Assembly (NCBI GenBank): GCA_900320225.1
Contig: ONRL01000027.1
Location: forward strand, 1-32,287
Length of the DNA stretch: 32,287 bases
DNA from: an uncultured Lentisphaerota bacterium
GTDB taxonomy: Bacteria; Verrucomicrobiota; Kiritimatiellia; RFP12; UBA1067
Direction: 5' to 3'
In this document: positions 18,850 to 22,214 of the stretch, in pieces
Layout: the number at the start of each line of letters is the position of its first letter
Numbering within the stretch: position 1 is the first letter of the stretch
Notes under the pieces: generated by a model
Database searches by the model: none
Told to the model about the DNA's origin: nothing
What the model saw: the letters and a program-made list of their open reading frames with translations, nothing else
Made by a program: the position numbers and the translations under genes

Positions 18850-19287
18850 CTAGCGGATCTTCCGTCTTGTCGTTCCTTTCCGAGACTGCGCCGCAGGGGC
18901 GACCTGCGCCATGTTCGCCGTGGCCATGCGCTCCCGGGCGCGGACGACGGCGATCTGACCCGGCAGCGGACGCCCCGCCGCGTTCATGCGCACCACCTGG
19001 TCCGCACGCGGGATGTTCATCTCAAGACCGAAGCGCACGAGTTTCTCCTGCAGGCGGTCCACCGCCATCAGCTCGTTCCAGCGCGCCGCCACGCGCTCGG
19101 TTTCCTTCACCAACTGCTTGTAGGTCTTCTCGGCCTCCTGCAGTTCCTGCGCGACCGACGTGCACCGCATGCCCAGCACGCCGTAGCACATCGCCATGGC
19201 GAACCCCGTCACAAGCAGCGCCACGACACCCGCCGTGTTCACCGTGAAACGGGAGTGCTTGTTCACCTTCCTGTTTCTTCTCCTCAT
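18850..19287 (-). CDS. ftsL: FtsL-like bitopic division protein
   Basis: The protein has 145 residues. A basic N-terminus (MRRRNRKVNKHSRF) leads into one membrane helix (~18-40, TAGVVALLVTGFAMAMCYGVLG). A heptad-like coiled coil follows (~45-80, VAQELQEAEKTYKQLVKETE), then a basic tail. This is the layout of FtsL/FtsB family scaffold proteins that recruit FtsI and FtsW. Sequence identity to FtsL is low in general, so the call rests on size, topology and the position between rsmH and ftsI. The start ATG at 19287 overlaps the rsmH stop as ATGA, with GGATGG upstream; the open frame to 19413 is part of rsmH read in another frame. Confidence 0.75.
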   Translation of the reverse strand: MRRRNRKVNKHSRFTVNTAGVVALLVTGFAMAMCYGVLGMRCTSVAQELQEAEKTYKQLVKETERVAARWNELMAVDRLQEKLVRFGLEMNIPRADQVVRMNAAGRPLPGQIAVVRARERMATANMAQVAPAAQSRKGTTRRKIR

Positions 19288-20210
19288 GCCGCCATCCTTT
19301 CTACTGTTCGCAACTTGGCGCTGCGCGCCCGTGGGTTGACATCCGTTTCTTCTGCCGACGCGACCACCGCGCGGCGCGTGACTGGGCGGACCCGCGGGAG
19401 AAGCCCCTCCCACCGCTCCCCGCCCTGCTGGAGCGAAACCATCCGTCCGGCATGCGCGGCGAAGAACCGCTTCACGATCCGGTCCGTCAAGCTCTCGAAC
19501 GTGATCACCGCGAACCGACCGCCCGCCTTCAGGACGCCAAGGCCGCCGTCCAAGGCCCGCTCCAGCTCGCCGATCTCGTCGTTCACGGCCATGCGGAGCG
19601 CCTGGAACGTCCGCGTGGCCGGATGGTGCGGCCCGTGCCGCCCCACCGTTCTCTCGACCAGCTCCGCCAGCTGGCCCGTCGTCTCGATGGGACGCGCCGC
19701 ACGCGCCTGCACGATCGCGCGCGCGATGCGCCGCGCGTTCGGCTCCTCGCCAAGCGTCTGCAGAATGCCCGCCAGCTCCGCCTCCGTCCGCGTCGCCACG
19801 AGCGACGCCGCCGTCACATCCCGCGACCGATCCATCCGCATGTCAAGAGGCCCGTCCGCCCGGAAGCTGAACCCACGGCCGGGTTCATCCAGCTGAGGAC
19901 TCGACACGCCCAAATCAAGCAAAATCCCATCGACTTCTCCTATTCCTTTTTTCTGCACGATCTCCGCAAGCGACCCGTGGCACCCGTGCACCAGCACCAC
20001 GTTCGCGCCCGCCACGGACTCCAGCCGCGCGGCGCTCTCCGCCAGGGCCTGTTCGTCGCGGTCAATGCCCACGAGCGTCGTGCCGGCGCCGCCGCGCAGG
20101 AGAATCTCCCGCGCATGGCCGCCACGCCCCAGCGTTCCGTCCACGTACACGCCGCCCGGACGGATCGCCAGCGAATCAACCACCTCTCTGAGAAGAACCG
20201 GAATGTGCAT
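19284..20210 (-). CDS. rsmH: 16S rRNA m4C1402 methyltransferase RsmH (MraW)
   Basis: The protein has 308 residues, full length. The SAM-binding start is IRPGGVYVDGTLGRGGHA (~16-33). The characteristic second block is DGILLDLGVSSPQLDEPGRG followed by FSFRADGPLDMRMD. TRTFQALRMAVNDEIGELE and the C-terminal GGRFAVITFESLTDRIVKRFF are also diagnostic. It methylates N4 of C1402 in the ribosomal decoding centre. The start ATG at 20210 has GAGGGAG upstream, 14 bases after the mraZ stop. The order mraZ-rsmH-ftsL-ftsI-murE is the classic dcw order. Confidence 0.96.
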   Translation of the reverse strand: MHIPVLLREVVDSLAIRPGGVYVDGTLGRGGHAREILLRGGAGTTLVGIDRDEQALAESAARLESVAGANVVLVHGCHGSLAEIVQKKGIGEVDGILLDLGVSSPQLDEPGRGFSFRADGPLDMRMDRSRDVTAASLVATRTEAELAGILQTLGEEPNARRIARAIVQARAARPIETTGQLAELVERTVGRHGPHHPATRTFQALRMAVNDEIGELERALDGGLGVLKAGGRFAVITFESLTDRIVKRFFAAHAGRMVSLQQGGERWEGLLPRVRPVTRRAVVASAEETDVNPRARSAKLRTVERMAA

Positions 20211-20224
20211 GTTCCCATTCTCCC

Positions 20225-20707
20225 TCAGAAACGCAGCCGCTTCCGGGCGGCCCGCAGGTTTTCCGCATTCTCCGCCGAACGGCCAGGCGCGTTCTCGGGG
20301 GCCCAGAGACGAGCCATTCGAACGGCGCCCTTCATCACGACGGTACCCTTTAGGTTCGCATACTCCAGCAGCCTGTCGCAGATGCGGATGCGCCCCTGAA
20401 CGTCAAACTCGAGAAGTTCAGAGTCCTCGCCTACGCTTTCAAGCACGTCATTGTATTCATCGCCTGTCAGGGCTTCGTCCTGAATGCCCGCCAAACGCGA
20501 TTCAAACATGCCCTTCGGGATGAGCAGGAGACAGGGTTGCCCCTCCTCCTTCATCACGTAGACGTAGTCATCACCCAAAGCACGGCGCCAGACGCTTGGT
20601 ATCGTCAGACGCTTCTTCGGGTCAAGAGGACGCTCAAAGGTGTTCACCAGTGCGCTGGGGAGCACTATTGCCGTCTCTTGGACACTCTGTTTGCCTTCTA
20701 TTGACAT
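20225..20707 (-). CDS. mraZ: Transcriptional regulator MraZ
   Basis: The protein has 160 residues and carries two AbrB-like swapped-hairpin half-domains with DNA-contacting loops: LDPKKRLTIPSVWR (~28-41) and FDVQGRIRI (~99-107). MraZ forms a ring-shaped multimer and binds runs of TGGGN direct repeats with 10-bp spacing to control the dcw operon it begins. The N-terminus has about 18 residues more than usual ahead of the first loop. There is no Shine-Dalgarno before the ATG at 20707, so a later start such as the GTG codons near residues 15 and 21 is possible. Eight regularly spaced GTGGGG boxes lie 214-295 bases upstream and one box lies at 20732-20737. Confidence 0.93.
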   Translation of the reverse strand: MSIEGKQSVQETAIVLPSALVNTFERPLDPKKRLTIPSVWRRALGDDYVYVMKEEGQPCLLLIPKGMFESRLAGIQDEALTGDEYNDVLESVGEDSELLEFDVQGRIRICDRLLEYANLKGTVVMKGAVRMARLWAPENAPGRSAENAENLRAARKRLRF

Positions 20708-20718
20708 CGCTGGACATT

Positions 20719-20747
20719 AGTAAACACTATTCCCCACCGAAAGTCAA
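20719..20747 (-). promoter_or_regulatory. Candidate mraZ promoter with an embedded GTGGGG box
   Basis: TTGACT (20742-20747) is followed by 17 bases and TTTACT (20719-20724) on the minus strand. The -35 is good and the -10 is weak. The spacer contains a GTGGGG box (20732-20737), a position where bound MraZ would block RNA polymerase. The start of transcription would fall within a few bases of the mraZ ATG. Confidence 0.35.
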
Positions 20748-20920
20748 ACCCAATTTTATAATTTTTTTAAAAAAAATTTCTCCCCCATTGCCACCTGTGA
20801 TCGGAGAATTACGAGAAACCCTGAAAATAAGGGCGAAAACGCGCCTCAGGCGCTGAAAGAAGGCTTACCTGAAAGACAGCAGGGACTCGCCTCCCTCAGG
20901 AGACGGCAGCCCCGCGCGCG
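20748..20920. other. Non-coding spacer with AT-rich tract upstream of mraZ
   Basis: The interval between ilvC and mraZ (20708-21101) carries no convincing gene. This part holds an AT-only run of about 28 bases (20752-20779) with T- and A-tracts in a GC-rich genome, which could act as an UP element or bent DNA. An open frame of 63 codons across 20865-21056 is low-complexity Gly-rich and is not accepted as a gene. Confidence 0.5.
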
Positions 20921-21002
20921 CCCCACCCATCCCCACCAAGCCCCACTCTCGGCCCCACCCATCCCCACACCCGGCCCCACTCATCCCCACACTCGGCCCC
21001 AC
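20921..21002 (-). promoter_or_regulatory. Array of eight GTGGGG boxes, candidate MraZ operator
   Basis: On the minus strand GTGGGG occurs eight times; its plus-strand complement CCCCAC starts at 20921, 20931, 20941, 20953, 20963, 20975, 20985 and 20997. The steps are 10, 10, 12, 10, 12, 10 and 12 bp. The last part is a 22-bp tandem repeat (units at 20950, 20972 and 20994). The known MraZ site is TGGGN repeated every 10 bp, so the spacing and sense fit. G-quadruplex formation is another possible role. Confidence 0.5.
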
Positions 21003-21012
21003 CCATCTCCGC

Positions 21013-21063
21013 AAAAAAAGAAACCGCGCGGTGCCACCGGACAGTTCCGGATGCACCGCGCGG
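21013..21063 (-). terminator. Rho-independent terminator of ilvC
   Basis: An 11-bp perfect GC-rich stem (21053-21063 pairing with 21024-21034) encloses a smaller CCGGA/TCCGG hairpin. It is followed on the minus strand by TTTCTTTTTTT (21013-21023). It starts 38 bases after the ilvC stop. Confidence 0.9.
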
Positions 21064-21101: not shown

Positions 21102-22214
21102 TTACTTCACGATCTTGCGGCCGCGCACGCCCGCCGCCGTCGCGGCGTTGGCCTTGGCCTTCTCATGCGGACGCAGCGAGCGCACGGCCGCGCCGGCCTG
21201 CCACATCTCGCCGTCGTGCATGGCCTGCAGCTTCGCCGCCATGAATTCCTTGTAGTCGGGACGGCCCGTGTCGCGAATGACTTCCTTCGCCTCCTTCATC
21301 GTCTTCACGCTCGCGTAGAGTTTCTTGAAGACGGGCTCCACGGCCTTGCGGAAAATCGGACGCCACTTGAGCGCGCCATGCTGGGCCGTCTGCGAGCAGT
21401 TGGAGTACATCCAGTCCATGCCGTTCTCGTCCACGAGGCGGATGAGGCTCTGCGTGAGCTCCTCGCACGTCTCGTTGAACGCCTCGCTCGGGCTGTGGCC
21501 GTTCGCGCGGAGGGTGTAGAACTGCGCTTCCATCACGCCACAGAGCGCACCCATGAGGATGCCGCGTTCGCCCACGAGGTCGCTCGTGACCTCACGTTCG
21601 AACGTGGTGGGGAAGAGATAGCCGGAACCCACCGCGATGCCGATCGCGATCGTGAGCTCGCGCGTCTTCGCCTCGTCGGCGCCGTTCGGCTCGTAGGCGT
21701 AGGAGCTGTTGATGCCCGCGCCGGAGAGGAAGTTGCGACGCACGGACGTTCCCGAACCCTTCGGGGCGACCATGACGAGCATCACGCCCTTCTGCGGCTT
21801 GATGCCCGTGAGCTTGTTGTAGACGTAGCCGAAGCCGTGCGAGAAATAGAGCGCCTTGCCGGGCGTGACGTACTTCTCGATCGACTTCCAGATCACGGGC
21901 TGCGAGGCGTCGGACGTGAGCATCATGATCACGTCGCCCTTCTCCGCGGCCTCCTCAACCGAGAACAACGTTTTGCCGGGCACCCAGCCGTCCTTGATGG
22001 CGCGCTTCCAGCTTGAGTTGGGCTTCGTGGATTTGCGCTGCCCGACGATCACGTTGATGCCGTTGTCGCGCATGTTGAGGGCCTGTCCCGGACCCTGGAT
22101 GCCGTAGCCCAGCACCGCGATCGTCTTGCCCTTGAGGACCTTCTGGGCCTTCTTGAGCGGAAATTCCTTACGCGTCACGATCTTCTCGACGACGCCGCCG
22201 AAGTTGATGTCCAT
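21102..22214 (-). CDS. ilvC: Ketol-acid reductoisomerase IlvC
   Basis: The protein has 370 residues. It converts acetolactate or acetohydroxybutyrate to the dihydroxy acid with NADPH and Mg in branched-chain amino acid synthesis. The nucleotide fold is AVLGYGIQGPGQALNMRDNG with VGQRKST after it, where the Arg and Ser/Thr favour NADPH. The Mg-binding domain includes FEREVTSDLVGERGILMGAL and GHSPSEAFNETCEELTQS. Length and motifs such as SHGFGYVYNK and DWMYSNCSQTAQHGALKW look like the Bacteroidetes-type enzyme and not the ~330-residue class of E. coli-distant bacteria; a possible sign of transfer or of shared ancestry. The start ATG at 22214 has AAGGAG upstream. No ilvB, ilvN or ilvD is adjacent. 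It has its own promoter and terminator. Confidence 0.96.
   Translation of the reverse strand: MDINFGGVVEKIVTRKEFPLKKAQKVLKGKTIAVLGYGIQGPGQALNMRDNGINVIVGQRKSTKPNSSWKRAIKDGWVPGKTLFSVEEAAEKGDVIMMLTSDASQPVIWKSIEKYVTPGKALYFSHGFGYVYNKLTGIKPQKGVMLVMVAPKGSGTSVRRNFLSGAGINSSYAYEPNGADEAKTRELTIAIGIAVGSGYLFPTTFEREVTSDLVGERGILMGALCGVMEAQFYTLRANGHSPSEAFNETCEELTQSLIRLVDENGMDWMYSNCSQTAQHGALKWRPIFRKAVEPVFKKLYASVKTMKEAKEVIRDTGRPDYKEFMAAKLQAMHDGEMWQAGAAVRSLRPHEKAKANAATAAGVRGRKIVK

Follow-up and report, generated by a model that had tools for sequence, protein, structure and literature searches.

The window, the whole stretch of 32,287 nucleotides analysed here, is a single contig from the MAG of an uncultured Verrucomicrobiota bacterium; the MAG has 5.2 Mb in 351 contigs and is 95% complete. 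Its minus strand carries, in order, ilvC, an intergenic region, mraZ, rsmH, a small ORF, a penicillin-binding protein gene and a gene for a MurE-like ligase. The first dcw gene, mraZ (20225..20707, minus strand), encodes the cell-division cluster repressor. The protein matched PF02381 with 37.6 bits against a cut-off of 23, and its match to NF001477 (E 1.4e-13) fell under the equivalog cut-off. It shares other marks of the MraZ family: its gene stands before rsmH in the dcw cluster, it has two DxxxR motifs (D29/K31/R33 and D102/Q104/G105/R106 were invariant in 30 orthologues), and a model of the monomer, with a pLDDT of 85, matched MraZ structures at an E value of about 1e-10. MraZ proteins 73-74% identical to it were found in Verrucomicrobia bacterium UBA3624 and in another uncultured Verrucomicrobia MAG. 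The second dcw gene, rsmH (mraW; 19284..20210, minus strand; TIGR00006, E 5e-96), lies directly downstream of mraZ. The small ORF, which occupies the position of ftsL, had no family match, and our reading of the dcw genes after it as a penicillin-binding protein and a MurE-like ligase goes beyond family matches. Upstream of mraZ, ilvC (21102..22214, minus strand; TIGR00465, E 1e-90) ends in an intrinsic terminator at 21013..21063 on the same strand, a stem at 21024-21063 followed by a T-run. The stem folded at -34.5 kcal/mol with a z score of -6.1. Within the genus, ilvC adjoins mraZ in only part of the genomes.

In the mraZ promoter we found a site with the layout of a four-box MraZ operator (20702..20737, minus strand), its boxes placed at exact 10-bp steps. 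Box 1 is GTGGGG (20732-20737), box 2 GTGTTT (20722-20727), box 3 ATGTCC (20712-20717) and box 4 ATGTCA (20702-20707), the last of which includes the ATG start codon of mraZ. Read from 20737 down to 20702 the operator is GTGGGGaata GTGTTTacta ATGTCCagcg ATGTCAatag. The sequence-only reading of this DNA had noted a ninth GTGGGG copy in the candidate promoter; that copy is present, at 20732-20737, but it is box 1 of a complete operator and not a lone box. The candidate promoter itself (20719..20747, minus strand) consists of a -35 element TTGACT (20742-20747), a 17-nt spacer and a -10 element TTTACT (20719-20724), so placed that box 1 falls within the spacer and box 2 overlaps the -10 element. 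We read this promoter from conservation among congeners, in which the TTGAC part is kept and the -10 element reads TTTAAT; it falls under the threshold of the consensus sigma-70 scan, which returned no promoter above threshold.

A comparison of mraZ promoters across the order showed that about 45 genomes have four boxes at exact 10-bp steps between the -35 element and the start codon. A degenerate form of the four-box pattern occurred once per genome in 14 of the 16 members of the genus, always at mraZ, while reversed-pattern controls gave one match in total. The promoter box is degenerate, roughly RTGKS plus A, G or T, and among relatives box 1 swaps between GTGGGG and GTGTCA (in G008, for example). 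A phylum-wide search for GTGGGG triplets turned up two mraZ promoters in another family of the class with GTGGGG, GTGGGG, GTGGGG and GTGTCA at 10-bp steps, and the mraZ upstream region of E. coli MG1655 carries GTGGGA, GTGGGG and GTGGGA at -44, -34 and -24. The MraZ site of Burkholderia is described as four GTG-type repeats in a 7+3-nt layout (PMC7761207), and two structures, PDB 9sz7 and 9r4j, show MraZ of M. genitalium on a promoter with four boxes. Because of these comparisons (across the order, with the other family, and with E. coli, Burkholderia and M. genitalium), the promoter site appears to be a standard MraZ operator and GTGGGG a standard MraZ box. We take this four-box site to be the primary MraZ operator on sequence grounds, separate from the array described below.

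The distal array, a putative auxiliary MraZ operator, is a row of eight GTGGGG boxes at 20921..21002 on the minus strand, which is the strand of mraZ. Counted on the forward strand the copies begin at 20921, 20931, 20941, 20953, 20963, 20975, 20985 and 20997; on the minus strand their 5' ends are at 21002, 20990, 20980, 20968, 20958, 20946, 20936 and 20926, giving steps of 12, 10, 12, 10, 12, 10 and 10 bp toward mraZ. This alternation of 10 and 12 bp amounts to a period of about 10.9 bp. Two of the three 12-bp steps read GTGTGGGG: here the GTGGGG box at +12 shares bases with a GTGTGG box at +10, which places overlapping GTGTGG registers at 20987-20992 and 20965-20970 (minus strand). The array reaches from 214 to 295 bp upstream of the start codon (A of the ATG at 20707), and the array stands 189 bp upstream of box 1 of the promoter operator. 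Tandem Repeats Finder (TRF) returned a 22-bp unit in 3.5 copies with 87% matches, and its score of 119 was the highest in the window. The sequence-only reading had described eight copies in one orientation at 10- or 12-bp steps, about 215-295 bp from the start codon, partly a 22-bp tandem repeat and right behind the ilvC terminator. All of this held on recounting, and folding confirmed the terminator hairpin and its T-run. The eight copies compare with about 0.024 expected by shuffling (82 bp, one strand). The GTGGGG count of the window as a whole is unremarkable (24 on both strands, against a shuffle expectation of 18.75), and what is unusual about the array is its clustering and phasing, not the number of GTGGGG in the window. 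Directly after the array, at 20903..20920 on the minus strand, is a G+C-rich GCGCGCG element; most distal arrays of the genus are followed by one, and a GCGCGCG stretch was seen at the matching place in L003, L004, L005, L007, L008, L012, L013 and L014.

We trained a weight matrix on 120 promoter boxes, all from genomes outside the genus, and scanned both strands of the window with it for four boxes at 10-12-bp steps. Two loci stood out, the promoter operator with 23.1 bits and the distal array with 21.2 bits; the next best site scored 13.8. The identification of the GTGGGG repeats as MraZ boxes, proposed in the sequence-only reading, thus gains from the matrix rank, from the match to the promoter operators and from the boxes of the other family and of E. 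coli, and we regard it as well supported by sequence comparison. The proposal that the array is the expanded MraZ operator of this gene stands in part: the array has the features of an auxiliary operator, but it is neither the only operator nor the main one.

Distal arrays of 4-13 boxes were found at mraZ in 7 of the 15 genus genomes that have the gene (the figure of 13, for G009, includes GTGTGG boxes); three genomes had one or two boxes and five had none. The upstream comparison of related genomes, which the sequence-only reading had proposed as a check, thus gave a box number that ranges from 0 to 13 between congeners and a 10/12-bp phasing that the arrays share. Each of the seven arrays had a best-fit period within 10.4-11.1 bp, and the pooled phase coherence exceeded that of every one of 20,000 random-step and 20,000 random-unit-length simulations, with the reservation that the 22-bp units arose by duplication within each array, so that the counts and step statistics are not fully independent. 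Alignments of the arrays are likewise partly driven by the repeats themselves. The array is not essential, since G002, G007 and G014 lack it despite closely related MraZ proteins, and others have only one or two boxes. At L013 and L014 a 7-bp ACGAACC/ACGAATC satellite about 230-290 bp upstream of mraZ adjoins the lone remaining distal box.

Tandem duplication of the units within each species and a copy number spread as widely as 0 to 13 are what one would see in a neutral minisatellite with a 22-bp unit, formed near mraZ when a G-rich seed was multiplied by slippage. We consider this origin improbable. Between species the spacers diverge while the boxes and their phasing are retained, every copy in the genus has the orientation of mraZ and its promoter boxes, with none reversed, and an independently trained box matrix recognises the copies. 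We also looked for off-target arrays in the genus, in 115 genomes of the family and in a sample of 388 from the phylum, using a pattern search for the genome-wide checks. Within the genus, comparable arrays occurred at mraZ only, coding or exact short repeats aside, and neither the family nor the phylum genomes searched showed a comparable intergenic satellite with 10/12-bp steps anywhere but at mraZ. The same satellite at sites unrelated to mraZ was the outcome that had been named beforehand as speaking against an operator. Three-box GTGGGG patterns off mraZ were mainly exact 12-bp repeats, which on the other strand code for (TPPV)n linkers, along with a few short tandem triplets, so that the off-target units are mostly different from those of the array.

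Exact 12-bp repeats of the GTGGGGTGACTG type are the antisense of the (TPPV)n linkers that a widespread ORF encodes, and form a coding minisatellite whose copy number varies between genomes; they were seen at G000:C221:7658-7687 (L058) and at L036, L048, L053, L079, L080, L083, L110, L114 and L120. At L050 (G005:C103:56345-56386) there are five 9-bp GTGGGGACR repeats, apparently intergenic and unrelated to mraZ. Three 12-bp GTGGGGGACAAR repeats at L035 (G009:C19:13384) and L082 (G082:C149:3746) are common to two genera, and in G009 they adjoin a tRNA-like end.

The array presents eight successive runs of four G on the coding strand, and a G-quadruplex upstream of mraZ in S. aureus is reported to affect expression (PMC11796246), which raises the reading of the array as a control element of mraZ whose G runs adopt a four-stranded form, in DNA or in RNA. 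We give this reading very little weight. A GT directly precedes 43 of the 44 runs of at least four G in the arrays, and the runs keep helical spacing; a quadruplex needs neither, and the arrays do not show G runs conserved alone with free spacing and flanks. Promoter boxes, moreover, swap to GTGTCA or GTGTTT, neither of which contains a G run, and with the likely start site downstream of it the array need not be part of the mRNA.

At least four different genes lie upstream of mraZ among the array-bearing genomes. They are ilvC in the genome of the window (G000), G009 and G013, a transporter-like gene in G005 and G006, and two divergent genes, an AAA ATPase in G011 and a dynamin-like GTPase in G008. 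G005 and G009, which pair as sisters in the MraZ tree, differ in their upstream neighbours; G013 and G011 have MraZ proteins that are identical over the compared stretch, and again their neighbours differ. Homology between G013 and G011 starts at -238, where their shared array has its outer edge, and the only intergenic islands conserved between G000 and G013 run from -245 to -173 (the array and GCGCGCG) and from -47 onward (the promoter operator). The homology edge, the islands and the changing neighbours together point to the array as the outer edge of the mraZ unit and not the tail of the upstream gene. The boxes might instead serve a different regulator with GTG-type direct repeats, or be the operator of the divergent or upstream gene, given that the specificity of the array for MraZ is read from sequence and that the divergent gene is close by in G008 and G011. 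Such a role is highly improbable in our view: mraZ is constant while the upstream genes change among array-bearing genomes, and the boxes share sequence, orientation and phase with those of the mraZ operator.

The position of the array bears also on a role in which bound MraZ acts as an insulator or roadblock against upstream read-through into the dcw cluster. The array is directly behind the ilvC terminator in the window genome and directly behind the co-directional transporter-like gene in G005 and G006, and several congeners have hairpin-plus-T-run elements between array and promoter. We nevertheless think an insulator unlikely, if less so than the other alternatives, since the ilvC terminator of G000 is already strong and since G008 and G011 keep the array although their upstream gene is divergent, which leaves no co-directional read-through to block. 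L011, L013 and L014 have long near-perfect hairpins, with T-rich runs behind them, between the array and the mraZ promoter, at a distance of about 90-190 bp from the promoter operator; these may terminate an upstream transcript (compare UpsM of Rhodobacter). An Rfam scan gave no match, and a search by alignment and folding for a conserved RNA between array and promoter yielded no common structure, just unrelated hairpins.

MraZ is among the most widespread bacterial regulators and forms a ring. Because a row of its boxes follows mraZ through the genus, the distal array is probably a second, enlarged operator, and we put the probability that it is an auxiliary MraZ-binding operator at roughly 0.78. 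Box identity, orientation, helical phase and linkage to mraZ can be read from the DNA, and binding by MraZ is what we infer from them; the array would then be a lineage-specific enlargement of a known type of operator. Against it speaks the alternation of 10 and 12 bp, since characterised operators keep strictly to a 10-bp step. MraZ rings could occupy the array as several units of three or four boxes or as one long wrapped complex, which would keep a high local concentration of MraZ beside its own promoter. The complex might also bridge the gap of about 190 bp to the four-box promoter operator, and bridging would tighten the autorepression of mraZ and of the dcw genes downstream or give it a more switch-like character. 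We offer bridging as a tentative mode of action. More speculative still is the fuller picture in which a multi-ring or wrapped assembly bridging to the promoter operator forms a division-cluster switch that is tuned by box number and evolves by gain and loss of 22-bp units. A rigid, phased loop between array and promoter was considered and found unsupported; we do not claim one, because the gap ranges from 149 to 246 bp among congeners and its helical phase is not conserved. An mraZ mutant of M. genitalium is reported to have been complemented only in cis (PMC8475190), which fits a role for local MraZ concentration.

The congeners form a natural series of 0, 1, 2, 4, 5, 8 and 13 distal boxes beside one conserved four-box promoter operator, in which one can test directly how ring stoichiometry, DNA wrapping and repression are related. 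To our knowledge, MraZ operators have three or four boxes. That of E. coli consists of three TGGGR repeats at 10-bp steps and resembles the array in box, in orientation to mraZ and in its direct repeats; E. coli, however, has three boxes beside the promoter only, whereas the window has a promoter operator and, 189 bp further upstream, eight boxes at 10/12-bp steps. The operators of Burkholderia cenocepacia and Mycoplasma, four 7+3-nt GTG-type repeats over the promoter and start site, are like the proximal operator here, and the accessible parts of their reports describe no long distal array (PMC7761207, PMC8475190). Rhodobacter shares with the window an extended regulatory region upstream of mraZ, the UpsM leader with a terminator 84 nt upstream of the gene (PMC5089854), but UpsM is an RNA element, whereas our searches here yielded no conserved RNA or Rfam match. 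S. aureus, like the window, has G-rich repeats upstream of mraZ (PMC11796246). Those repeats were read as four-stranded DNA, whereas the box phase and conserved GT in the window point to protein boxes, and our data suggest a check for MraZ boxes wherever else G-rich stretches at mraZ have been called G-quadruplexes.
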